Origin: Scatophagus argus
Taxonomy: Eukaryota > Chordata > Actinopteri > Scatophagidae
Direction of reading: 5' to 3'
Length of the DNA: 64,000 nucleotides
NCBI RefSeq assembly: GCF_020382885.2
Contig: NC_058499.1
Coordinates: 20,693,872-20,757,871, forward strand
Of the stretch, positions 28,741 through 52,425 are shown piece after piece. Each line of letters starts with the position of its first letter. The stretch's first letter is position 1. The position numbers and the translations under genes were made by a program. Below the pieces are notes generated by a model, which was given only the letters and a program-made list of their open reading frames with translations, was not told where the DNA came from and made no database searches.

Positions 28741-29235
28741 AATGCTAACCTATGTTTTTCACCTGTGTCAATAAACAGACTAATCCGTTAACTTCTATTC
28801 AGTTGGGTTTAAACCGTTCACATTTAAAGACTAACGACAAAACGAAACAAATAACCACATTTCTTGGCCATGTAATAATATAACAGAGAAATGTCCTTGG
28901 CCAAAAGGACTAGTAAGAACCTTCTAGATCAGTCCACCGTTTTCACATATGAGTAACGTTAATGAAAGTATTTTAACTCTATTAGTTATTACAGTGGGCT
29001 AGCTAGGGACAGCTGTCTGCACTGTTCTTGGGAGACCGACAGTCTGACTGGCTGTTTTTACGGTAATGTTGTGAGTCTAACCAAGCTAAGAGGGGTTGTT
29101 AGAAATCTACCAAGAGAGCTCATTCCTATTCTAATAGATTTATGATGGCGTCTTCATTTTCAGATGACAGGCAGGCAGGCAGAGAAGCCATTTTTCTGAC
29201 ATCTTAAATGATTCCGTACTTTTCTCCAGGAAGTC

Positions 29236-31832
29236 ATGGCAGACCTTGGCATCAAATCAGGAGACAAGGTGCTGCTGGTTTGGACTCAGCCCTCAGAACC
29301 AGCAGCCCTGAAACAGTATGCAGAGGAACTGGGTGCCATTGTTGGTGCAGAGGGCAAAGTATCAGTGGAGAATATGGAAAGATTATTGCTATGTGAGTGA
29401 CTTTTTTTTTATATACAACTCTATTTATTAGACTGAATGAATTAGACAAAATTTGGCACCATTGCACATTAGAGTCTGATTTTCCTGTCATCAAAAATGT
29501 AATTCTGGCAGAAGTGGATTCTATACAGAGTGTGACAGTTGTTGAAGGCATGAATCAAAAAGCCAGGACTAAAACGATCCTGTCTCCTCCTCTCCTCAGC
29601 CTCCCACTCAGCGTCCACTTTTGACTGTGTCCTCTCTTGCCTTCTGGCTGACAGCTTCTCCGTCCACAGTTCAGAGACTTTAGCAGAAATAGTCAGAGTG
29701 CTCAAACCTGGTGGGAAGCTAGTTCTGGATGAAGCAGTTACAGGTGAGAGAGAGAAGTGCTCTTCTTAACTCTTTCAAACTGATGTTTAAAGGCTGAAAA
29801 TGAGGTCCTTTTCAAAAGAAAATAAACAGTATGCACCTTTATGTTAGAACTTGAAGCCATAAAAGGAAAGAGTTTTTTTATTTTGTGTCTCCCAGCATTC
29901 ATTCACCTCATGGTACTAAAAACAGATCATTATGTGTAACATGGACATAATTCATTCAAAAAGTGAAATGAACATAAACTTTCATCATTTCATAGTTATA
30001 ATGTATTTCCTGTGTCAAGGTCATGGTGTTGAGCTGATAAGGTTGTGACTCTGATTGTCTTACACCGTGACAGACAGATTTCTTTTGTGTTCCAGGAGTT
30101 GAAATGCAGACTGTGAGGACTACTGAGAAGTTGATGTCGGTTCTAAAGTTGTCAGGCTTCACAGCGATAACTGAGGTGAGTGGGTGGGCTCATTCATGAA
30201 GAACATAAAAACCTAAAATATGCCTCTGTTCACTTAAGTTTTCTGCAATTACAGTTGCTCTGTAATACTTTGTTCACAAGAGGGAGGTGTCACACAGTAA
30301 AACATGTATGACTATCTTGTATGATTTGTGTGACTATCTGCACCAGTTCAATCCTTTTTGACTTCCTTGCTTCCTCCTCATTAAGGTCAGTAAAGCCGAC
30401 CTGAGTCCCGAGGTGTTGAACTCCCTCGCAACGACCACTGGTTACCAAGGAAACAGTCTGTCTAGAGTCCGCATGTGTGCCTCCAAACCCAACTTTGAGG
30501 TGGGCTCATCTAGCCAGATTAAACTGTCATTTGGGAAAAAGACGCCAAAGCCTGGTAGGTTTATAAGATCAGTTTTTCTTTTTCTGTGCGCCTTTTTTGT
30601 CCATATCTGCTAAATCTATAATGTGTCTCATAATCATACAAACATAACCAGTCATGTATCTCACTCTTTGTTCAGTGCAGGTTACATGAAATGATGCATG
30701 TGTGTGTTAATTACTTGAAATTTAAATGCTTATTTGTATTGACGATGTGGAGCTTTGTACGCAGACAAACAGAGTATCAATTTGTAAACAAATCTGCAAC
30801 ACTTTTTTTAAAACTCAAGTCTGGTATTCAATTAGTTAGTGTCCATTATCAGCATCAGTACGTGTGAACGTGTGTGGGTTTATTCACCAGTGATAACATG
30901 CATAGTCACTGATTTCCATACTGTGAAAATTGATGTGAAGCTAACATCTGCAAACATCTGTGGTTTCAGCAGAGAAACCTGCTCTGGACCCCAACACTGT
31001 CAAAATGTGGACGCTGTCAGCCAATGACATGAATGATGATGATGTGGTGAGTTACGGATTTTGATTTTTTTTCTCTCCTGTTGTAGAAACTCATTAAATA
31101 CAGCTTGGCCAGCTCTTGACCGCAGCATATCACTTCACAGCTAACGGGCCTGTACATGTTCAGCACCACATCATGCACACATCTTTCCATACTCTGCACT
31201 TCCTGGATGTACAGTCTCTCTGTTATCCCATCTGTTCACCTTCTCTGTAGGACCTGGTGGACTCTGATGCTCTGCTGGATGAAGAGGACTTGAAGAAACC
31301 AGATCCAGCTTCTCTTAAAGCACCCAGCTGTGGAGAGGGAGCTGGCAAGAAGAAAAAAGCCTGCAAGAACTGGTGAGTTCAAAGGTTTTTAAAGCACAGA
31401 CAAAAGCACATTGTGGGTGTGTTGGAATGCAGTGCTAATATAAAGAGATGGGCTTTCAAAAAAATCACTTATTGTACGTTTACACAATATTTAATAGAAC
31501 TTAAACCTTAAATGATCAAGTATGTTGTATGTTTGTGTAGCACATGTGGTCTTGCTGAAGAGCTGGAGCGGGAAAGTGAAGGAAAACAAAAGAGTAATTT
31601 GCCAAAATCAGCCTGTGGAAGTGTGAGTATATTCTCACTTTGCTTTCTCATGTTTTTTTCCTGTTGTACAAACCTGTTGACAGGTTGAAGAAATAATGTT
31701 TTCCATTTCTATCTGTGCCAGTGTTACCTTGGTGATGCTTTCCGATGTGCCAGCTGTCCATACCTGGGGATGCCAGCATTCAAACCGGGAGAGAAGATTT
31801 TGCTGGACAACGAGACGCTGACAGACGCTTGA
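29236..31832 (+). CDS. ciapin1: Anamorsin, cytosolic Fe-S cluster assembly factor
   Basis: Anamorsin receives electrons from NDOR1 at an early step of cytosolic iron-sulfur assembly and restrains cell death. Eight coding exons: 29236-29392, 29600-29743, 30096-30175, 30386-30554, 30970-31046, 31251-31372, 31541-31622 and 31722-31832. The total is 942 nt, or 313 residues (human 312). The N-terminal methyltransferase-like domain ([31 protein letters not shown]) lacks catalytic function in this family. The linker with [15 protein letters not shown] leads into the two cysteine motifs: C-x10-C-x2-C-x-C (the human first gap is 8) and C-x2-C-x7-C-x2-C ([15 protein letters not shown]). The end is [17 protein letters not shown]. 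The acceptor at 29231 leaves only 5 nt before the start codon, so there is an upstream non-coding exon. The 3' end of exon 4 has a near-identical copy at 33.7 kb inside a transposon. Confidence 0.97.
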
Positions 31833-32460
31833 AACACTGGATTTCACACATCACATCGCTCATGATTCAAAACATTACATTCCTTCTTTTTTTTTTTTCT
31901 TCCATCCACAGTTCCCTCCACAAAAACACACAGTGGAAAGCTGCTTTTTCAGTGGCGTCACTGCAGATGTGATGGGAGTTTTCTGTCTGTTCAGCGAAAT
32001 GGCATCTGTGTGACAGCTTTGAAATTGCAACATGCATCATCTTGTTTCTGATTATGCCTTCATGTAGCAACAACAGCAAGTTGTGTACACTTTAGAGTTT
32101 AATTTGAGATTTTTTGCAATGCAGCTATGACAACGAGCAAGCACGAGATTTCAGTGAAATTCAAAAAAAACTGCACTGTCATTGTAGTTTCAATCCTGCT
32201 GTTAATTATGCAAATGACGGTGTGAGAAATACCTGCAGGGCTTCTAGCACTGAAAGCTCGAGACACAGTGAAATGCATTCGTTCTTTTCATGCAAGGTTC
32301 TATTTACATCTGACGTGAAGTAAAAACTACATGATGTTCACCAGCAAAGCACATGAAGGTCCATACAAACTGTCCAATTCAAGGTTATTTATATATATAT
32401 ATATCTAAGGGCAGTTTGGTATAAGTCATGTTGTTGCCTCTTTGTGTTTCATTTTAAAAC

Positions 32461-32472
32461 AATAAAATAAAG
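32461..32472 (+). terminator. ciapin1 polyadenylation signal
   Basis: AATAAAATAAAG about 630 bp past the ciapin1 stop codon contains two overlapping consensus signals. Confidence 0.6.
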
Positions 32473-32498
32473 CCATCCTAACGTTTAGAAGTATCCCA

Positions 32499-32504
32499 TT
32501 TATT
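32499..32504 (-). terminator. Distal prmt7 polyadenylation signal (candidate)
   Basis: A minus-strand AATAAA facing the ciapin1 signal about 30 bp away. A nearer minus-strand signal at 32992-32997 is an alternative. If the distal one is used, the two mRNAs overlap at their 3' ends. Confidence 0.4.
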
Positions 32505-33281
32505 TTGCTGGCTGTGGCTGACGCACACCTGATGGGTTCATTCACACAGAGTGTACTTCAGCACATTAATGGCACCAAAAACAACACTGAGCGGCTGTGG
32601 GTGAACACACATGCAGTATTAACAGTCTTTGAAATACTACTGGATCAAAAGAGCTCAGCAGGGACGTCCCTACCCTGCTGGTCCCCACAGTCGGTTCCTT
32701 CAACGAGACACAAACTTCTGTCATGCTAATGTGACAAGAAAGATACAAAGAACTGCTCAACCAATATAAAACTTTATAAAATTTTTCCATAACAATGCAT
32801 TTGGCTTTGCCAGGTGGGTGACTTTCACAAGACTTTCCTCGCCTCTGGTACACAACAAGCTTCAGATTTCTGGTTGTGTTCACCCTCACAAGTTACTAAG
32901 ACACACACCAGTTTGCATCCCTACCTGCACCGAATTGACTGATTATCCAGCAGCCAGTCAGTGACTTCGACCTTGGATGTGATGGATTTGATTTATTATT
33001 TGTTGTAGAATTGGTAAAAACTTCACTAGTTGCTTGTGCTAGTGCTTTCTCCATTGACATGAATTAGTATAAGGTTAGCATCGGTAACATTCTGACTTGT
33101 GGTGGACAGTTTTCATATCCCACACTCTTAAAACACTGAATACTGCTAAGTTTCAGCCAGAACAATAAACCCATAACGGCTGAACCACACGTTAAAAAAG
33201 CACCCACGAGGGCCACAAAGCAAACAGTGACAGTGAGGTAAAAAGCATGAAGCGTCAGTTCTCCTGTCAGATTGCTGCACG

Positions 33282-36200
33282 TCACGGGGACAGGACGCTG
33301 AAGTCCATCTTAATGTCTCCTGAGCTGGGCTCAAAGGTGAAGCTGTAAGACACTGCGGCTCTGCCATCACCTGAGCTCTCCCACGGTGAGCTGAGAAAAT
33401 ACACTCCCTGTTTCCTGTGGCGAGTCCACTCACACTCACCCTGCAGGAAGACAACACAGCCAATGTGTTAGGAAATGCAGCAGCAACAATCCTGCTGTGC
33501 ACGTCACTGAACTCCAACCAACTCATGCTCTTTGTTTGACAATTAACTCAGGAGCAACTTGTCACTTAAAAAGATCAAGATCAATCTGAGCTCAACTTCT
33601 ACATATCATATATTCATATATATATATATATATATATATAGATATATATATATATATATATGCCGATCAGCCACAACATTAACACCACTGACAGGTGAAC
33701 CCAACTTTGAGGTGGGCTCATCTAGCCAGATTAAACTGTCATTTGGGAAAAAGACGCCCAACCCTGGTAGGTTTATAAGATCAGTTTTTCTTTTCTTGTA
33801 CGCCTTTTTTGTCCATATCTGCATCAGATAGCATCAATCATACCTTTACAATGCAATGTTCCACAGGTAAATGTTGGGTTCTAGCAATCATGTGTATGTG
33901 CTTTGAATGACGCCACCCACCTAAACACTGCAGACCAAATATACAACCCCCCATGGCAACGGCTCTTTCCGCCAGCAGCAGCCTCCTCCAGCTGGACAGA
34001 GTACCCCGTTACATTTCAAAAACAGCTCAGGAATGTCTTAAGGACCACAACAATGGCCTGACACCAGGAGGCCCCACTCTCAATGCACTGGACCCAAACG
34101 ATCCAACATTCTGATGCTGGTAACCACAAAATAGCCCCAGAGGTCCTGTGTCCCTTCCCCTGACAGGTCCGAGCTGTTTTGGAAGCACAAGGGGGACCTA
34201 CGTAATGTTAAGCAGATGGTTTTAATGTTGCGGGTGATCGATGTAGATTTTTCTTTGGGTTTTGGACTGTTAGTCGGACAAAATGAACAATAACTAATCA
34301 AGACAATGACTGGCAGATTACCTTATAATGAAAATAACTGTTCGTTGGAGTCCTAACTGTGAGGCTGATCAGACACAATGAGATGAGTGCAACAGACAGA
34401 ACCAAAATATAGCAGGCAGGAAAATGTCAGGGATTAAAGATGATCAGTATGTTAAAGCAGAGGCTAAAGGTGAAGGCTGTGATACCTGCTCACTGACTGG
34501 TCCAGTCAGACCTGCACTGACAGTGATGTCATCGGTTAGCTGATACTCCATCCACAACACAACACCATGGCAACGACCAGTCCTGAAACAGATATTTAGA
34601 CAGACTGTGAACAAGGCTTCTCATGTCAAACACACAATGAGGAGCTACCTGCAGCTGTTTAGTCTCAGGAAGGAAACAAGGCCGGTCCAAGGCCTGAAAC
34701 AAATCTCTGTATACTGAAACAGCACTAGGACCTGAGTAGAGGAGGTCTGGGCTCTGCTTCTAAGCAAATGCGAGAGTCGGCAAAGAAAACCCCTGCCAAT
34801 TTTATCTCAAATCAAGTTTTTGAAAAGATCCAGCCCAGTACCATAGTCTATAAAAGCTGCTGTTTCCTTTACACTCCAAATACTGACTGATGAAGAGTAT
34901 GGCTAAAAGGGACAATCTTTTGGCTACAAGCTAATAGCACCAGGCTACATTATTTACTCTGAAAATTCTAGGTTCTGAGCAAGACTTATCCAGTATTTAT
35001 GAAACAGGAGATACTATACTGGTACTATACTAACACTGATTTTGGTCATTTCCCCAGACTCAGTGGGCTTCACACTGACTTACTGTAATTGTTAAGGACA
35101 GTGGTGTATACATGAATTATCATTTCTGGATAAGAGGAGGATCAGTTTACACTGAAATAAATATGTAGTCACTCACAGACTACTTTCTTGTCTTTTCCAT
35201 TTCTTTCTTTTTTTTTTAATCAGTACTTTATACCTGAGAACAAATACAAATCGTTTTTCTAATTTGGAAGACAGAGGAAAGCTCAGTACCTTATGAAAGG
35301 TAGTGAGCCCTGACTGCTGATTGGCTCGTGAGGGAGACACTGTGTGAAGTCAAAGGTCATGACGGCTGTGGACTGGGTCAAAGCACGGCACGGGTACTCC
35401 CAGAGAGGGTGGGGCTCCGCCTCACGGGACTCGCGGAAATCCAGAGATTGCTGAAGGGACAAGTGTGGCAATTTATTTTTTAAATAAGTATTTTACTTTT
35501 TTAAAAAACATATTCACAGGTTTAAAGTCAGGACAGACCTAACTTAAATACACAAAAAACTGACATCACTACAGAGTCAGTTTTCTGATTAAGAGGATTT
35601 CTCCTTCATTCTGGACATATCATATTACCTGGAGGTTAAGCTAGAAGCAAACAGAATTTTTTTTTTACCTGGACCATTTCATCCATGGGTGTGACATCAA
35701 AGCCCTCACATGTCCCACACGGTGCTCGTATCCTCCACAAATCCTAACAAACGTGGAAAACACAAACTGAACCTTTAATAATTATCATTCATTTAAAAAA
35801 TGCAAATGTGACCATTTCAAACTTTGCATGAGGATCTTAACAAAACTACATTGTCGTCCATAGAAAACTTCAATCTCCTAAAAAAATAAATAAATAAAAT
35901 AAAACAAAAAAAAAAACCTGAATGAAATCTTTCTGGAAACCTACAAAAAGGACAGCGGATGTTCCTTCCTTTATGCTTTCTTTTTAAATGTTTGAGGAAA
36001 TGTTGTCATATGTGTCACCTGGAACTCGACAGCCATCATGTGAAGCGTGGCAGAGCAGGGCAGGATGGTGGCGTTGGGCCGGAGGAGGCCTACCAGAGCT
36101 GTCCGACAGTACCAGAAGAACAGGGAGTGCCAGGGCAACAGACTGGTGCTGAAGTACGGTTCACCCATCAGGACTGAGATCTGTGACAGATGTGCTTCAC

Positions 36201-38251
36201 ATTCACTCCACTGAGATAAACATTTTTTTTATTATTTATTACTTTTTTTTTTTACATATATATATATATATATATTAACAAACATCCTCTCAACTTCTCT
36301 CCCTGAACAACCCTGAGCAGCTGACATGTTCCCAGTACAGCATTTAACAAATACAATTACACACTTTGACAGCCAGCATGTACAGCCAGCATGCCTTAAA
36401 AACAAATTTAATGACCTGTGAGACGCTAAAACGCTCCATAAAGCGGAGAGGAACAGCATAGTTTGTGATAATTCTCAGTGGGTTTGTCACTACAGTGTAG
36501 CAGCTTTTTGTCCATATTTTCATTGTATTTGATGGATTTTAACATACATTCTTTTTTTTTTTTTTACACAATTTTTTCAAGAGTTTAAAATGTGCACTCT
36601 ACTTCTTGATTGTTACAGCTTATTGCTTTATTATAAACACATCGTTCATACTGTAAATTACAGGTTCTAAGTTGCCATCCCCTAACGATACCATCGACAC
36701 TGTGGCAGAATGCACAGCACCAAAGTCTTGATCCAACAGTACCTGTTGCTCTCCCAGGTCATTACTGGTCAGCTGTTCAGGCCTGATCTCCAGCAGCTCC
36801 ACACCTCCTTTCACTGAGTTGGCTTCCAACAGCTGCAGAGAAAAATGTGTAGCATCGGCACCTCTTGGTCTTTTGTATTTTTGTGCTGATATGTCTAAAA
36901 ATACCAGTCATATCACATATGACAGTTCTCTAAGATTAAGTATCATACATAATTCTCATTCACCTGCTCAATAACCTGTTTAGACATTCTGGAGTTTTCC
37001 AAACTGTAGACCTAAGCAAAGACCAAGAGAATAAAAAGACAAGTCAATAAGAGAGCCTGAAGGGATGTAAAGGTACAGTATGTGCCCACATGGTTGAAGT
37101 AGAGTACCTTTTTGGCTCCAAGCATGTGAGCAAACACGGGAAGCAGACTTCCATCACTGATGCTAAGACACACGCTGTCCTCCTGCAGAACCTGGAGTTA
37201 ACGCAGCAGGTAATTAGAGAACAAACTTGTCCGTTAGTTCACTGACAGGTCTGACTCCGACTGGCCATCACTTACACTTCGCAGCGCGCTGACGTAGCTC
37301 TCTGTGCGCCGTCTGTCGTTGAGCTCACCAAAGCGCGGCCGATTCCAAACCAGGTGAGCCTGACAGGTACAACATGGCCGAGAGGGAGGATCGTCAGTCT
37401 GTGGGTCCTGTTGGCTGAGGACATCAGCATACAGAACATTTAGAGCATTCAGGCGTTGTGATACTGAAATTAGCACACAACTATTAAAAATCTGCATTTG
37501 TGGTATCAAGGTTGACTTTTATTCATCTCCCAAAAATTCATACTCTGTTCTCAGGTTATTTTAATTAGGTATTTTCACGTGCTCAGCATGTATTCAAAGT
37601 AAGATTTCCTCCTCTTCCTCGGGTAGGACTTCCATTCAGTCTGAATCTGAATGATTTTACTGAGCTTTTGTCCAGTGGCACCACAAGGTCACTGGGTTTA
37701 CAAAACAAGTGTTGGTTTATGTTCAGTGTTTCAGGAGATAACGTTCAAACAGCAATTCTAAGGTAAAGCAGAAACTTATACAGTATGTTGTCTCTGAGCT
37801 GTTACCTGCGGGACTGCAGGCTGTACCACAGACTGTAGTCATCATGGCAGACAGTCAGACTTAGCTCGTCTCCTTCTGTTACCCTGCTCTCCATCGGCAG
37901 GAAGTACACGCTCTGCATCCAATGGTCCCGCCACTGAAACACACAACAGTGATAAGCAGGGACTGATAGGAGCCTAACTCGGGACGACATAACTCTGTGT
38001 CCCATAACTCACCGGCGCCATCTTTGGCTGTGGGTACGTCCAGCTGGGAGCCATGGTGCACACAATGCTTCCACTGGGATCCATGTCAAGGTCCCACCAG
38101 GAAAGGACGACCTGTGCACGACCATTTGACTCAGCCGTAAACTTGGAGGAGTGGGACTGGAACGCACTGCTTACCGGCCTACTGAAATCCACACTGAAAG
38201 GGAAGGATGAAGTGCAGAGGGAGGAGAAAGAAAGATGTGAAAAAAGATATG

Positions 38252-38297
<46 letters not shown>

Positions 38298-41200
38298 ACA
38301 TGTTTATCAGTTTCATACCTGAACATGGTGCAGAGAGGACCCAGCGGGGTGAAGCTGTGAGGAGACACCTGGCTTAGCTGGATGTCACACACGGAATGAG
38401 CTCCAGCACAACGGCCCACATCGGGCGGCGGGATCAAACGGGCCCCCTCCACCTCCACCGGCTGCAGCTGAGCCCAGCTCCACAGCAGCTCTGACTCCAC
38501 CAGCTGGGCGTAGACGGTGGCCCGGTGAGGGACCGCCTCACAAACCTCCTGCAGGGTGGAGAGATGCAAGGAGATCTGACCACCAAATGTCTGCATTTTA
38601 TTTTAGACTACCCGTATTTTCCGCACTATAAGGCGCACCTAAAAGCCTTAAATTTTCTCAAAAGCCGACAGTGCGCCTTATAATCCGATGCGCCTTATCT
38701 ATGGATCAATATTGGTCAATCGTGGCTACCGTAGTCAGGGGGCGTGGCCGAAGTAACAGATTTAAGCGCACTGTGGATAAAACGAGAACACGTACGGTGA
38801 ATGTTCGCACCACAGGGAATGAGAAGTCGTCCTTCACTGTAGTTCTCGCTTGCCAGGCTAATGTGGGAAAGAAACTACCACCCATGGTTATTTTCAAGAG
38901 GAAGACCTTGCCAAAAGACTTTCCAGCCGGCGTCATTATCAAGGCTAACTCGAAGGGATGGATGGACGAAGAAGAGATGAGTGAGTGGCTGAGAGAAATT
39001 TACGACGTTAACGACGTTAACGAGCCGGGCATGTTGGATGCCGTATTCGCCCAGCTGTTCAATTCGGACACTGAAGAAGAAGAATTCGAGGGATTCGTGG
39101 ATGAGGAATGAACTGATAAAGTGAGCTTTACGTGTTTCTTTTGTGTGTTCACAACTGAACAAGGTTGGTCATATTGTGAATATGGACATTAACGTTTGAG
39201 CAAGTTGAGTTATTGTTAAATGGTTATTGCTTTGCACTATTTCGAGAGTTACTATATTGTTATTGCACTTACGTCTGAGTTACCGTAACGGTATCAGACT
39301 CTTTTACGTGTTTACTGAATCGAGGAAAAGTTCCCGTCCACTACGTGATAAAAATGTTGCACTACCTGTTATACCGTGCTGTTGTTAAAAGATAAACTGT
39401 GTCGCGAAAATACTACGTCGCTGACATTACATCGGGAAAAATAATAACACAGCTGTTTATTCATTTTGGGAGTGAACGGAGTTGTCAGAACGCTGGTTTG
39501 TATTCTATTAATAAAGTTTGACTGACTTATCTGACTGTTTTGTTGACATTCCCTTTAGCGCAGCTCCATCTAGTGGACGCAAAACGCAACCCGAACCACT
39601 GCTGTAGCTTCTATCCTATGCGCCTTATAATGCGGTGCGCCTTATATATGAAAACAGTTTTAAAATAGGCCATTCATTGAAGGTGCGCCTTATAATCCGG
39701 TGCGCCTTATAGTGCGGAAAATACGGTAACTGAAGTTATCTGACTTTATCTGACTTTTCTTTGGTTGACTCTTTTGAATTCTAAAAGTTCATGACCAGAA
39801 TAAAAACTACAGATTAATATAACTCCATGCATCATACAAACACATTCAAATATCAACGAATGCACACACACACACCTGGACCAGATTTTGGTGAGCATGT
39901 TCATAGCTGGGCAGGGCTCCTTCACCTATCAGCTCTGTATCAAACAGTTCTGTGATCAGAATGTTGGCCTTCATTTGCATATCTCCATCTGTATTAAATC
40001 ACACACACACACAACACATATCTCATCAACACCGACATGCTAGCAACACCATGCTCTTGTCTGCACGCTCTTGTCTCTCAGGACAATAGTTCACATTACA
40101 GATGCTGCAAGTCTCCATCAGTCAACTGATAGAAACAAAAGGACATTGATATACATACAGTGATACAGTGCTACTGTGTGTGTGTGTGTGTGTGTTTCTC
40201 TCTGACCTGGTCCCACAGTGACATCAGTTGAGTGTTTGTTAATAATCTTGATCTTGTCGGAGAATCCGTTCTTCTTCACGATGCACTGCGCTGCCTCAGC
40301 CATGGGCTTAAAAACCTGCAGGCACAAAGGAAACCAAGACGACACCTGAAGCTGCATCTCTTCTGGTTTTTGAAATGGTTCTGAAGGTGTTTAGAGTATG
40401 AGTAAGTCTAACAGTGATAGGGACAATAAAGTCAGTTTGAGCTCGTCTCAACCAGAAAACATCAGAACATCAGAGCACTCACTCACATAAGAGCTTAGCG
40501 CTAGCACAGCACTAAATATTTCTATGAACAGTTCTTTGTCAAAATCAACAGGACGACTCATACAGAAACAGCTGTTTGTCTCTCTCTCAGCACTGTTCGT
40601 GGGTCTGATACAACAGCGGCACTCACTGTCATGGAGATGCAGCCTCCAATGGCACATTAAAATTATCTGACATGACTTCACTCCAAAGATAAGGTGCGAA
40701 GAAGATCGCTCAGATACAAACGGGGAGAATTCTGTATCATCAGACTCCTGGTAGGGACCTGTCCCTACCATCCATATGCAAACCTACATCTTGGTGGAGT
40801 GGGGTTCCAGGTATAACACAGGAGAAACAGGCCTTAGACCTTCAACCAGACAGAACTACAACTACAGTCACAACTACAGTTTACTGTCTGAAACACAGTG
40901 ATAATATGTGGACTTATTGGTCCTGGTAATGTACAGTCCTCATACAGTAGAGACAGGAAGGGCTTTTGTACCTCCACAGCATAGCAGAAGTCTGCGCCGG
41001 CAGTCAAAGCCATCATGGACAGTAGGCCTGTTCCTGTTCCGATGTCCAGGACGATGACCTTCTCGCCACGAGCCTTTACTCTGGCCACAGCTGCACGGAT
41101 GCCCTGGTAGTACTTTTCATTCTGGAGGCAGAGAGAACATCAGCTGTGTCATTGTATGAGAGGAGCAAAGAACGATCAGCAGAGAAATTTAATAAGGTAA

Positions 41201-42006
41201 GTTTGGTGCCGTTTTCTCATTTTCAGCTCAATCTACTTATAAATAAACTAATTAAAAGATACCATGTGAAAACACACACTAAACAATGAGTACACAAAAG
41301 GCATCCTATCACAGAACAGTCTGATACAGACCTAAATAATAACTATATTATTTAATCAGAATAAAACTTTTACTTTGAAATAGCTTCATCATCACCTAAA
41401 ACTCTGCTACTTCACAAATGTGGCTCATCTTCTCAACACTCACCCTGTCATGGTCATGGAGCATGTCTGCGTAACAGGACCTGGAAGATAAACATGCTGA
41501 ACTGATCAACGGGACAACAGATTCAAGTGTTGGTATTCTTTTCAGAAATGTCTGATCGTGTCAGAAAATGGCTAACGCTGTCATTGTCAGAGCTTTTCAA
41601 CTCAGATATTAACAGAGCCCAAATGATAACAGAGTTATCTTCTGATGCCACCGCGGCACAGACCCCGAACGTCAAAATAAAGTTGGTTTGCTTGTTGACA
41701 AACGAAAACACTCAGTGAAAAGATTTTTTTTCATTGATTTAAATCTCAACTCAGTATACATCAGCACAACAGAAAGCAGTTTTTTAATGAAATGACTTCA
41801 TGTTTTCACAGGGGCCAAAATGACTTTCTACTTTTTATGTCCGCCGAGAAGAAGACCACATTTAAACGCGTGCAGCTTCTCCCCATGCTGTGATGCTAAG
41901 CTCGGAGCTACCTGGCTATCTCTTGATGGTAGTCGTACTCCTCACTCTCCTCCACCCAGTCTAAAGCTCCTGTGGTCGGGTTGGCTCTTCCACAGAACGT
42001 CTTCAT
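33282..42006 (-). CDS. prmt7: Protein arginine N-methyltransferase 7
   Basis: PRMT7 is the type III enzyme that makes monomethylarginine on histones and RNA-binding proteins. Seventeen coding exons (minus): 41912-42006, 41444-41480, 40972-41121, 40207-40315, 39876-39988, 38319-38548, 38013-38193, 37806-37933, 37276-37414, 37108-37191, 36964-37011, 36743-36832, 36019-36180, 35669-35743, 35290-35450, 34486-34582 and 33282-33440. The total is 2058 nt, or 685 residues (human 692). Start [23 protein letters not shown]-binding motif I is [15 protein letters not shown], and the double-glutamate loop is [17 protein letters not shown] second, degenerate methyltransferase repeat forms the C-terminal half, as the family requires. 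All phases fit. Intron 5 carries a pogo-like element and intron 16 the mariner-type element with the ciapin1 insert; neither touches an exon. Confidence 0.96.
33617..33660. repeat. (TA)n microsatellite
   Basis: A TA dinucleotide run with one GA interruption directly abuts the left end of the mariner-type element. Since these elements insert at TA, the tract may have been the target or may have grown from it. Confidence 0.8.
33659..34245 (+). mobile_element. Tc1/mariner-type element carrying a captured ciapin1 exon end
   Basis: The left terminal repeat (gccgatcagccacaacatta, from about 33661) pairs with the right one (taatgttgcgggtgatcgat at 34223-34242), with TA at each edge. The right portion, 33885-34220, matches the C-terminal half of a Tc1/mariner transposase gene as I recall it (ggttctagcaatcatgtgta, ccatggcaacggctc, gagctgttttggaagcacaa) but is decayed and not coding. 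Between the left repeat and this portion, where the 5' half of the transposase gene should be, lies 33698-33822. That is a 125-bp copy of ciapin1 30486-30610 (69 bp of exon 4 plus 56 bp of intron) with 5 mismatches by hand count. The segment 33823-33884 is of uncertain origin. The element lies in prmt7 intron 16, antisense to prmt7. Confidence 0.8.
36256..36276. repeat. (TA)n microsatellite
   Basis: A short TA run in prmt7 intron 12, next to a T-rich stretch. Confidence 0.7.
38251..38297. repeat. (TA)n(GA)n compound microsatellite
   Basis: A TA run followed directly by a GA run, about 20 bp beyond the donor of prmt7 exon 6. Length change here could affect splicing, but nothing shows that it does. 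Confidence 0.8.
38611..39726 (+). mobile_element. Internally deleted pogo-like (Tigger/DDE_1) DNA transposon
   Basis: The ends are inverted repeats (left ccgtattttccgcactataa, right the reverse complement ending ggaaaatacgg), flanked by TA as expected for pogo elements. Subterminal copies of a gcgccttataatccg-type word recur at both ends. An open frame at 38671-39111 (146 residues) keeps the middle of a pogo transposase: [55 protein letters not shown]. It then jumps to an acidic C-terminal end ([19 protein letters not shown]). The N-terminal DNA-binding domain and most of the catalytic core are gone, so it could move only with a helper. It lies in prmt7 intron 5, antisense to the gene. Good terminal repeats and an open frame suggest a fairly recent insertion. 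Confidence 0.85.
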
Positions 42007-42170
42007 CTCTGCCACAACTGCTACAATACTCCGATAACATGTAAGATTAAATACAGGCTGTACAAAAATGGAATATTCCACACAACTCAAACAGTGAAAT
42101 GGGTTACAAATGCAGCGTTGCCCCTACGGTAGCGGCCATCTTTCCCAGCGACGTCACAAACTATTTAGGT
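42007..42170 (-). promoter_or_regulatory. prmt7 proximal promoter
   Basis: A YY1-type GCGGCCATCTTT at 42132-42143 and a palindromic CRE-type GACGTCAC at 42150-42157 lie about 130-150 bp upstream of the prmt7 start codon, in a locally CG-richer stretch. This combination is typical of TATA-less constitutive promoters. The transcription start is inferred to be near 42130. Confidence 0.55.
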
Positions 42171-44234
42171 CACGTGACTAGCAATAAAACCCAATTCACT
42201 TTCTTTTCATTCCAACAACGGTACAAAATTGTACAAAAACTACATATATGCTTTTGACTTAATGTTAATCTTAAAATAATAGAAGTACAATCGCTGACAG
42301 GATTTAGAAAAAATATTTGTAACATGCACTTAACAGCAACAACAATAACAATAATAATAATGAGAAGAAGAAATGGCAGAAGAAGAAAGTTTATTTTACA
42401 AAACATTTATTTAAGCATTTATAAGACAGGATCTACAATGTGCTTCAGAGGTTGGCATTGAACCAGAGCAGGAGATATCTTTTGAAATAACAGCAGAAAG
42501 CACTTCACAAAAGGAATTAGCAGAAAAATAACATATAAATACAATAAATACATAAAAAATCAGATTAAAAACACCCTTTACAAACAATATTAGAAGATAA
42601 AATGGGACAAAATAACAAATACACAAAGGCAAGTTAATGATGGTGATTTGAAAGTAATTAGCAGCCAAAGTTCCTCAGCCTTAAATCTTAAGTCCAGACT
42701 GTAGTGTGATGATGATTTAATAAAACTGTTAATACAGTTATTATTTATATAAGTCACATACCGTAAGTTGTAATTGATGCACTGTTACATGCTGTACAGA
42801 TATTCAGATGTTTCAGGGACTGCATATTTTTAGTTTTGTTGCGTGACTATTGTTTGGCTTTCATTGAATATAACATTAGGTTTTGTTTTGATTTTACTTC
42901 AAACCATGAACTCCTCCTAGGCAATAAACATAACATCATATGCACAAATCGACCCATTAATACAATATCCAATGGCTATTTTCTTCTGCAGGAACAACAG
43001 GGTCAGACCTTGAATATCTCACCACATTTTTATGGCTATCTGGTAAAGTCTTTCAGTTATTTGTTAGAATTCAGAAATGTGTCAAAAGTTCCTGATTAAT
43101 TATCTCCAATAGGCTCGACCCTTACTTCCAGTGAAGGGAAATCTTAATGCTTCAGCATACCAAGACATTTTGGACAATGCTATGCTTCCAACTTTGTGGC
43201 AACAGTTTGGGGGAGGCCATTTTCTATTCCAGCATGACTGTGTCCCAGTGCACAAAGCAAAGTCCATAAAGACATGGCTGGATGAGTTTGGTGTGGAAGA
43301 ACTTGACTGGCCCACACAGAGTCCTGACCTCAACCCCATCCAACACCTTTGGGATGAACTGGAAAAGAGATTGTGATTCAGGCCTTTTGGTCCAACATCA
43401 GTGTCTGACTTCACAAATGCTCTACTGCATGAATGGGCAAAAATTCCCACAGAAACACTTACACGTTATAGCTGCAAAGCTGTCTATGTTTTTGTAATGC
43501 AATGTCATTAAAATCTCAGCTGGTGTAATGGTCAGGTATCCCAATTTGTCTTTTGTCTATATAGTGTAACTGTCAGTGAAATCTGTCATATAACCTGGTC
43601 AACAGCTTCATCATCCCTTTGAGATCATCATGCACGAGTTGGTACACACAGAGCAGTGTGCAGATTACTGATGTCATCTTCAACGATTTCTGAGTCAAAG
43701 TTTTCAGCGTATGTTGGTTAAAGCTCCATACTGCAAGCTTTAATGTCAAAGTCTGGTTAAATCTGTAGCATAAATCACACGATGGAAAGCTGCGATAGAG
43801 TAGAAGATATTGCTTTACAGTTCATATTTTTGAGCCACAGTGGCTGATTGATTCAGAACTTTACCAGACAAATGAGATTCGGCTTAAGGTGAACCTGGAC
43901 CAGCAAGTCACCAGCTCAAATCCCTGGTATGTTCACCCTATGGGTGAAGGGAAAGAAAATGTGTCCCTCTCTCTTTGCTCAACAGATAGCAGCTCCCACT
44001 ATGCATGTTGTAACACCGTGAATGTGAAGAAAAAACCAAGGAACTTCAATTGTTGCTCTCTGGATAAATAATGAATGACAGAATTGTACACAGGTTGGCC
44101 ATTCACCTGTATGGTCCTGCATATTTCAGTGTAATGATGAGCTGTGGACATGCAGCTTCACAATCCTTCTGAGAACCAGAGCCACCCTGATTTTAATGTG
44201 ACAACGGGAGTTCAGGCCTTGGCCTCCGTCACTG
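42171..44234. other. Intergenic region between prmt7 and exoc3l1
   Basis: Prmt7 upstream sequence, an (aat)n-type run near 42335-42362, a Tc1-like remnant (43100-43568) and the likely exoc3l1 3' UTR next to 44235. No other gene is supported. No clear AATAAA for exoc3l1 was seen within 400 bp of its stop codon. Confidence 0.5.
43100..43568 (+). mobile_element. Tc1-like transposon, 3' remnant
   Basis: An open frame at 43131-43376 reads as the C-terminal part of a Tc1 transposase: KGNLNASAYQDILDNAMLP, then FLFQHDCVPVHKAKSI and the final catalytic region VEELDWPTQSPDLNPIQHLW with the DE signature (HLWDELEKRL). It hits a stop and then continues in the same frame (FRPFGPTSVSDFTNALLHEW). The end tttgtctatatagtgta near 43552-43568 is the right terminal repeat. 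The N-terminal half and left repeat are missing, so the copy is 5'-truncated and inactive. Confidence 0.85.
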
Positions 44235-47200
44235 TTATGCACACTTGGCAGTGGGCAGACAGAAGGCCATGGTGGAGGGAGGCACCAGGATGTCAGTGAA
44301 GATGGGTCGGTATCCTGCAGGCAGAGGGGGGGCGCACTGCTCCAGCAAGTCCAACACAGCCCCCCTGATGTCCCTGGACACATCACCACGGATATCCAGC
44401 AGTACAGACACATGCTCTTCACTGAGGAAATAACATGCGTGGTATCAAATCATTTTGCTATAAGGATCTAACTTGATGTTAATGCATACTATATATGGTG
44501 ATTTAACAACCACTTTACAGTCAGCAGGGAGGTCAGATTACCTGATGTCAGGGTATTTGGCAGCAAGTCCAGAAACTTCCAGAATGAGCATACCAGGGTC
44601 TTTCAGCCGGACAAAGTCAGCCAGGACGGGTAGCAAGGCCAACGGATTGACTTCAGGTACCGACCCTTCACCCTCCTGTATAGATGCACACATCAATACA
44701 TTTGAATGAAGCTGTAGGAGAACAGTTTGTAGAAATGTTTTGATTTTGAACATTTTCACACCAAACATATTTTAAACCTCTGTGTATTCAGTGCTCAGTC
44801 TAGTATTTTATTTACTTTACTCAAATAACTTTTAAGCTGCAATGGGATGCTAAAATACAGCCCTCTGCTTTTACAGCAGTATAAACAATGATTTACTAGT
44901 GTGTGCTAATGTATGTAATCTTGTCAGAAGTGTGCCGCAAAATCAGTCAGGTTCAGGACTCTCACAGACAACTATTTTAGGACTGATTACATGTACGTAA
45001 TCTTTAGAACACTGAGGTACTTCAAAGTGTTTTAAGTCCATAAATGAACTTCTCGAGAGTCAGGTTCTCCTCACCAGGCCGTGGAAGATTTCTCTGAACT
45101 GCTGGTCGTCCTGAACTATCTGCTGGGCGAGCTGCCTCCTCTCCTCGGCACTGCGACACACCAACCTCTTCTGCATCAGAGCACGGACATACTCCACCAC
45201 CATCAGCCACTGGGCTTCCTCCTGCAGACGCTGTAGACACCGAAATAACATTCAGCAGCCATGTTGGCCACACATACAAAGTTCAGAGAACTGAAAGACA
45301 AGAAGTCAAGCAGCTCCAGTGTTTCACTGCACAATGTGTTTTAGAGAGATAAAAGGCAGGGGGCTAGTGTAGTGTGTTTCAGCCTACATGATAACCTTTA
45401 ATATGTCACTTGGCCGAGCCAGTGAACCAGAATTCTCAGTTTAACATCCAAAAGACAGAATAACGAACTAAGTCTGCACAGTAGGGACAGAAACAAAGCA
45501 AAGCTGTGACCTGTCGGCAGGGTGGTCGAACACGGCTGTACAGCTCCAGGTGACGCTCCAGGACGCTGCATAGTTTAGGGGTGGGGTCTCCCTGGACCAG
45601 CCAGGGTCGGGTCAGCAGGCCTGGGAGGAAAGGCTGAAGATCCAGCAGCAGCTGATCCATCACCAGGCGACACGCCCGTCTCACCGCCCGATCCAGAGCT
45701 GCCAGAGGGTTGGGGGGAGTCCGAGAGAACTGCCCCGCTGACCGGGACGACTGCTGCTGCTGCAGGCTCTCTGTGGACTTTCTGCATTTCAAACACACGA
45801 GACACAGTGGATTCCATTTACATCCGTATTTGTTATTTTTTACTGGCCTTATTTTAGTTAATTCTTATAATCTGTTGTGCTGGGAGAACCACTGGGAAGA
45901 CAGCACCATCTTGATCAGCAGGCCATTACAGCTGTTGTGTTAAAAATACTGAACTGTCAGCCAGTGCACATTTGCTCATTTATTTTTCACTGTGAACCAA
46001 CTGATTAGATGGAGTAATCATCATAGGGAGCAGGGTGGAGGGAAGTAGACAGCTGCTCCCAGTGTTTCACAGCTGCATGTGATGAGGCAGTGAACAGGGC
46101 AATGCAGCAATGTAAAAGATAAGCCATAACAAGTGCTGCATTCACATTTTTTTCACAGGAGTATTATCAGCAAAATGTAATTTAGAATGGAAAATACATT
46201 GTTGAATGGCCCTTTCAGTGTGTTTTACTATTATATACTGTTTATCTGATTCTTGACATCTTAATCTCTGCACCGTTCACTGGAATCACAAAGTCTCCCA
46301 TTCATTTGTGAAGGGCTCAGTATGATTGGAGATGTTTGGTGGCAAATTGCCAAAGAAAAACAGAATATCTGGTGTGTTAAGAATAGACAAGAAACTGATA
46401 ATCTCTTTTTCTGGTTCTGTTTACATTTACAGTATGAACTGACTATTTTTGAGCAACAACACAATTACCACAACTATTACACAATGCTTGCCAACCTGTT
46501 CTAGGTCCCCAAAGTGTCCAAAACCATTTTAGCAGGTTTCAAAAAGGACCCAAAAGGAAGACACTGAGAGGGCAGGTTAAAATTAATAAATAAAATGGTA
46601 GCTTTAGCAACATAAAATTGAAATTGGACTACTCTGGCTGCCAATAAAAACACAGGAAGCATAAAAATAGAGGAAAATACAGAACTAACAAAAGAACAAA
46701 CTGGTGAGTAACAGGGAAACCAGGCAGGAACAAGAAAGGAATCCACAAGCAGCAAACAGCAAACTTTTAGTGGTTCCGGAGGGACAGTACATGGACGAAC
46801 TACTCAGGAGGATGCAATTAACAAAGCAGGAACTGACAAAAAATTCAATTTAATTTCAAAATTAAAATAACTAAACTAAAACCCCTAATGCTGTCATAAC
46901 ATGAGTCTAAACACATTAGTGAAACAAAGTGCTGAAAGCTTAATCAGTGGTCATTCACCACCTTTTTGCCATTGTCTCACTTGAGGATGATGCAGTTGCT
47001 GATGGAGGCCAGCAGATAGTGGAGGTAGAACTTGTTTTTGTTGTTGCTCGGATCCCTGCGATGCTCCTTCCCTGATTCCACCAGAGCTTCTCGAAACCTA
47101 CGATGTGAAGGAACGGAGGTGGAAGTGAAGTAGAAGTGTATGAGCCTGTTTCATGCATACTGAAAATAAAGTGGCTTGACAAGCGGTCCAGAGCAAAACT

Positions 47201-52165: not shown

Positions 52166-52425
<260 letters not shown>

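Follow-up and report, generated by a model that had tools for sequence, protein, structure and literature searches.

A single-copy capture of ciapin1 exon 4 and intron 4 sequence in an old Tc1-type element of Scatophagus argus, probably by repair of a break inside the dead element

Pack-TIRs, terminal inverted repeat (TIR) elements that hold a piece of foreign DNA, were described by Tan et al. 2021 (PMC8277862), who counted 370 of them in 100 animal genomes, with 115 TcMariner cases and 8 from zebrafish. According to the sections of that paper drawn on here, 160 of the 281 unique Pack-TIRs lie within 15 kb of their donor, mostly under 5 kb, and 190 of the 281 show an overlap, of median 2 bp, at one or more breakpoints. 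The median breakpoint separation is 4.6% of the element, the median divergence of element copies from their consensus is 18.3%, breakpoints are skewed toward the middle of the element, and multicopy cases number four only. For most single-copy cases the authors infer gap filling that is independent of transposition. Pack-MULEs, as treated in the same paper, and gene-capturing Helitrons also hold host gene DNA within a transposon; these belong to other superfamilies, while at the locus described here the donor lies in cis and there is no amplification. A further relative is found in the human class 2 templated sequence insertions (PMC5110952), for which the authors, in the part of the paper used here, favour an RNA template.

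The window, which is the whole stretch of 64,000 nucleotides of Scatophagus argus DNA that was analyzed, contains ciapin1 on the + strand and prmt7 on the - strand, arranged tail to tail (Table 1). The coding exons of ciapin1 lie between about 29236 and 31832, and the joined protein, with Pfam domains CIAPIN1 and Anamorsin_N, has 99% identity with Scatophagus argus anamorsin; Morone saxatilis follows at 89% among the matches listed. Differences between our translation and the printed anamorsin were seen at predicted exon joins alone. Reverse-strand translations identify prmt7, whose joined last two exons match PRMT7 4c4a with an E value of 7e-21. A PDB sequence search for CIAPIN1 and an Rfam search over 29000-45000 each gave 0 matches.

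Table 1. Features of the ciapin1 capture and its surroundings (window positions)
Feature	Position	Strand	Remark
Donor segment in ciapin1 (coding exon 4, 69 bp; intron 4, 56 bp)	30486..30610	+	coding, conserved in fish anamorsins
Last two coding exons of prmt7 (about 34583-34490 and 33440-33290) and the last intron, which holds the element	33290..34583	-	exon limits approximate
(AT)n microsatellite at the left end of the element	33603..33661	.	element sits at the end of the tract
Old non-autonomous Tc1-type element with inverted-repeat ends	33661..34243	+	TA at 33659-33660 and 34244-34245
Left junction, AA common to element and donor	33698..33699	.	
Copy of the end of ciapin1 exon 4 and the start of intron 4	33698..33822	+	123 bp beyond the common AA
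Right junction, ATCAG	33823..33827	.	poor fit to donor and to family (family: GTGA)
Remaining element: 26 bp of 5' region, then decayed 3' transposase part and right end	33828..34243	+	

Within the element, 125 bp repeat a segment of ciapin1 located 3212 bp away, on the same strand, without gaps and with 120 of 125 positions identical; the mismatched donor positions are 30547, 30550, 30583, 30584 and 30588. The preliminary description had reported this equal-length repeat with 5 mismatches and had read it as a DNA-level copy of ciapin1 exon 4/intron 4 in a Tc1/mariner element, with a nearby donor in the same orientation; we recovered the same alignment and agree with that reading. The splice donor of ciapin1 coding exon 4 has its GT at 30555, corresponding to a copied GT at 33767, and the copied segment is thus part exon and part intron. 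The presence of the intron identifies the piece as a copy of DNA origin. Among the 120 listed anamorsins the copied segment was located by pattern in 60, 36 of which read KKTPKP like the donor, while KKTPNP, with the N of the copy, occurs in 2 of the 60. Since the donor keeps the common reading as well as its gene flanks, the copy in the element is the derived one and ciapin1 is its source.

Searching the complete 570.7 Mb assembly with the 125-bp piece returned two matches from two scored candidates, one being the piece and the other the donor, and because the search skips very common words this uniqueness is strong, though short of absolute. The donor extended by 100 bp on each side likewise matched only itself and the insert in a genome search skipping very common words. 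At the settings used, the piece is the sole direct repeat of at least 60 bp in the window besides microsatellite. An assembly artefact or a chance match is almost certainly not the explanation: the donor match has an E value of 2.8e-51, the five differences are spread out and the flanks differ, unlike in a collapsed or doubled assembly, and element sequence resumes on both sides of the piece. Separately, a long (GA)n microsatellite occupies 52245-52424 of the window.

The host element belongs to Tc1/mariner, as it has a TA target duplication, inverted-repeat ends (33664-33687 and 34217-34240 are complementary over 24 bp at 87.5%) and a Tc1-type transposase remnant. Its 3' part aligns with fish Tc1 transposases in interrupted segments. 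When the genome was searched with the element, 40 of 1063 candidates were scored and at least 72 matches obtained, indicating a large family. We fetched 38 family loci and aligned 26, excluding 12 that were partial or rearranged, and obtained a majority consensus of 541 bp, which was later realigned. The ciapin1 piece was present in 0 of the 26 aligned copies, all of which read through the breakpoint without it. At the breakpoint 25 of the 26 fit the family within 4 mismatches and one (L018) has 5, owing to one extra base. The possibility that the transposon consensus itself contains the segment is contradicted by these empty copies and by the genome search, which returned the segment elsewhere at the donor alone. 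No related locus turned up when viral_contigs and genome_contigs were scanned for the element; one scan gave 21 pattern matches and no relative.

An older internal deletion joint of the element lies at 33853/33854. This joint, ACAATG-CAATGTTC in the family, was found within 3 mismatches in 23 of the 26 copies and with 4-5 mismatches at the same distance in two others (L015 and L023); in one of the 26 (L040) it was not found. Its presence in most copies means that absence of the 5' half of the transposase characterises the family and that the piece is a nearly clean insertion. It had been proposed that the piece stands where this 5' half should be, a view that we abandon because the family consensus already lacks that half. 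A 700-bp replacement, suggested by alignment to a full-length Tc1 consensus, was rejected for the same reason, the internal deletion of the family being older. In that full-length consensus, the sequence just past the left breakpoint is matched by the 31 bases right of the piece at 21 of 31 positions (P 0.00015 for a position near the breakpoint, 0.0005 for any position in that consensus). Many family copies hold about 70 bases more than the host element near 34065, so that the host element either suffered a further deletion of its own or represents a shorter subfamily. A different Tc1-type transposase remnant with an internal stop was observed on the + strand of the window at 43119-43460; it has about 38-40% identity, over 115-118 residues, to relatives among the matches listed.

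The insertion point of the piece lies 39 bp in from the element's left end, and about 4 bp of element sequence were changed or lost. As the family consensus resumes on both sides with only this difference, the gap amounts to less than 1% of the 541-bp consensus. An overlap of AA(CCC) had been noted at the junction, of which we retain the AA (2 bp) and drop the CCC, the family reading GGTGAA-GTGAATAAC at this place. The AA overlap by itself is a 1-in-16 coincidence and counts against the repair explanation preferred below. The ATCAG at the right junction could represent filler or decay. Together with adjacent bases it can form a hairpin, TATCTG-CAT-CAGATA (chance 0.027 in a simple simulation), which could reflect snap-back during synthesis and on which we do not rely. 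Another family copy, L030, has an extra 65-70 bp (608-682) about 10 bp from the same site, mostly GATA-type repeat and with no gene piece; two unrelated additions so near each other may hint at a weak spot in the element.

Neither a flanking duplication of at least 5 bp nor poly(A) was found at the junctions of the piece. This bears on an RNA route, in which unspliced ciapin1 RNA would have been reverse-transcribed either through target priming of the LINE type or to patch a break (classes 1 and 2 of PMC5110952). Class 2 insertions, as described in the part of PMC5110952 used here, come likewise with overlaps, small deletions and extra bases, and the present case resembles them as a repair patch with an overlap, a small loss, extra bases and no target-site duplication; it is unlike them in that its site lies inside a transposon and its donor is a close neighbour. 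A neighbouring donor, however, fits a DNA template better, and the intron is present. Together with the lack of a duplication and of poly(A), this makes an RNA route very improbable.

The relative ages of the element and the piece can be estimated from their divergence. Against the family consensus the host copy has 54 differences in 456 positions (11.8%), near the median of the 26 family copies (11.9%, range 7.4 to 21.5%), and is thus typical; since these copies were chosen by their likeness to it, the host copy would, if anything, look younger. Between piece and donor there are 5 differences in 125 positions (4.0%), a value that includes the donor's own change. Fisher's test of 54/456 against 5/125 gives p 0.0075, and p 0.016 once the five junction bases are left out. 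Parts of the host copy compared alone with the piece give differences that are not significant, both for the 3' 182 bp (16/182, Fisher p 0.11) and for the left 38 aligned bases (4/38, Fisher p 0.22). Had the piece and the element been of equal age, the expected number of differences in the piece would be 14 if the donor were frozen (P 0.004), 20 if the donor intron evolved neutrally (P 0.00002), or 11 to 16 at the rate of the 3' 182 bp (P 0.03 to 0.0009). An unusually fresh left arm, apparent on the full-length Tc1 consensus (1/39 vs 85/382, p 0.0015), was rejected, the family consensus giving the 4/38 above.

Given the divergence of 11.8% for the host copy and 4.0% for the piece, capture probably took place well after transposition. 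The evidence that it also followed the death of the element, as it probably did judging from these sequence comparisons, is good and not conclusive; family structure could inflate the apparent age of the host copy, which counts against the preferred explanation.

We consider it likely that the piece arose when a break within the dead element in the prmt7 intron was repaired from a template, by transposition-independent gap filling yielding a single-copy Pack-TIR. The sequences demonstrate the copy and its DNA origin, its uniqueness in the assembly, a family that lacks it, and the small loss; that a break happened, that synthesis filled it and in what order things took place are what we infer. 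Long ago, a non-autonomous Tc1-type element would have entered a TA in or beside the (AT)n tract of the last prmt7 intron and then decayed in place. At 39 bp from its left end a double-strand break may later have occurred or a fork stalled, followed by repair synthesis, perhaps primed by AA, with a template switch to ciapin1 3.2 kb off on this chromosome and copying of about 123 bp. Rejoining to the element would have left about 4 bp lost or altered and the five unexplained bases.

A near donor in the same orientation and a breakpoint near one end (39 bp) also suit abortive gap repair, in which an active transposase would have excised the element and the gap would have been partly refilled from ciapin1; such repair is known for P elements, as cited in the sections of PMC8277862 used here. 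However, the piece shows less divergence than its host element, and the large internal deletion is characteristic of the family. According to those sections, this route should cost more sequence than the roughly 4 bp changed or lost here. We therefore regard excision as an unlikely trigger. The preliminary description had favoured gap repair after excision; break repair with a short overlap and a nearby template very probably stands, while the excision trigger likely falls, though this is unproven, with the younger-looking piece and the loss of about 4 bp.

Capture could also have occurred elsewhere or during transposition, the finished chimera then moving beside its donor in a FoSTeST-like manner or as a mobilised Pack-TIR. 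Both TA and inverted-repeat ends are indeed still visible. The genome search nevertheless returned no second chimeric copy, and we see no sign of the mobilisation after capture that had been considered earlier. The chance that a random donor lies within 3.2 kb is about 1e-5, and with local hopping set aside a chimera would have about the same chance of landing within that distance of its donor. This course of events is very improbable.

Templated repair within the dead element, by comparison, fits the pattern of PMC8277862, as far as the sections used here describe it, in the copy itself, its uniqueness, the empty family, the small gap, the age difference and the near donor. The piece falls within the 100-5000 bp that define a Pack-TIR there and lies in one TIR element that extends well beyond the 10 bp called for at each end, with 39 bp on the left and more than 400 bp, including the right end, on the right. 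It has one donor, with 96% identity (at least 90% in the definition, scored here by BLAST and there by BLAT) and a length ratio of 100% (80-120%). The 100-bp flanks of the donor are transposon-free, as judged by genome uniqueness alone, in a search skipping very common words, and crossing of the exon 4/intron 4 boundary sets the piece apart from a retro-copy. With only itself and the donor in the genome (2 of 2 candidates), the chimera is not a multicopy Pack-TIR. It is like the single-copy Pack-TIRs in its TcMariner host, its foreign piece of more than 100 bp, its unique equal-length donor of more than 90% identity at less than 5 kb, the 2-bp overlap, the tiny gap and the old element. Unlike in the Pack-TIRs as described in those sections, the breakpoint lies near one end of the element and not in the middle, which counts against the preferred explanation, and the host family is itself internally deleted; neither difference makes it a separate kind.

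Capture had been thought unusual for Tc1/mariner, an opinion that the 115 TcMariner Pack-TIRs cited above contradict. The capture is real and well supported, and as a single-copy Pack-TIR, new from a percomorph fish, it is ordinary for its kind; the phenomenon, superfamily, distance and mechanism have been described before. The literature matches listed include no publication on this locus, which is weak evidence of absence. The locus gives the animal Pack-TIRs a clean case from a fish and leaves the picture unchanged.

The piece is antisense to prmt7 and sense to ciapin1, so that the prmt7 pre-mRNA would carry about 125 bases complementary to the splice donor of ciapin1 exon 4. There is a very slight chance that a putative pairing of the two pre-mRNAs damps ciapin1 splicing; if this were true, break repair would have created a regulatory link between tail-to-tail neighbours. 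A large family with a single chimera allows the empty state, the breakpoints and the relative ages to be read in one genome. As the source of the ciapin1 capture, the locus favours repair inside dead elements over transposition.
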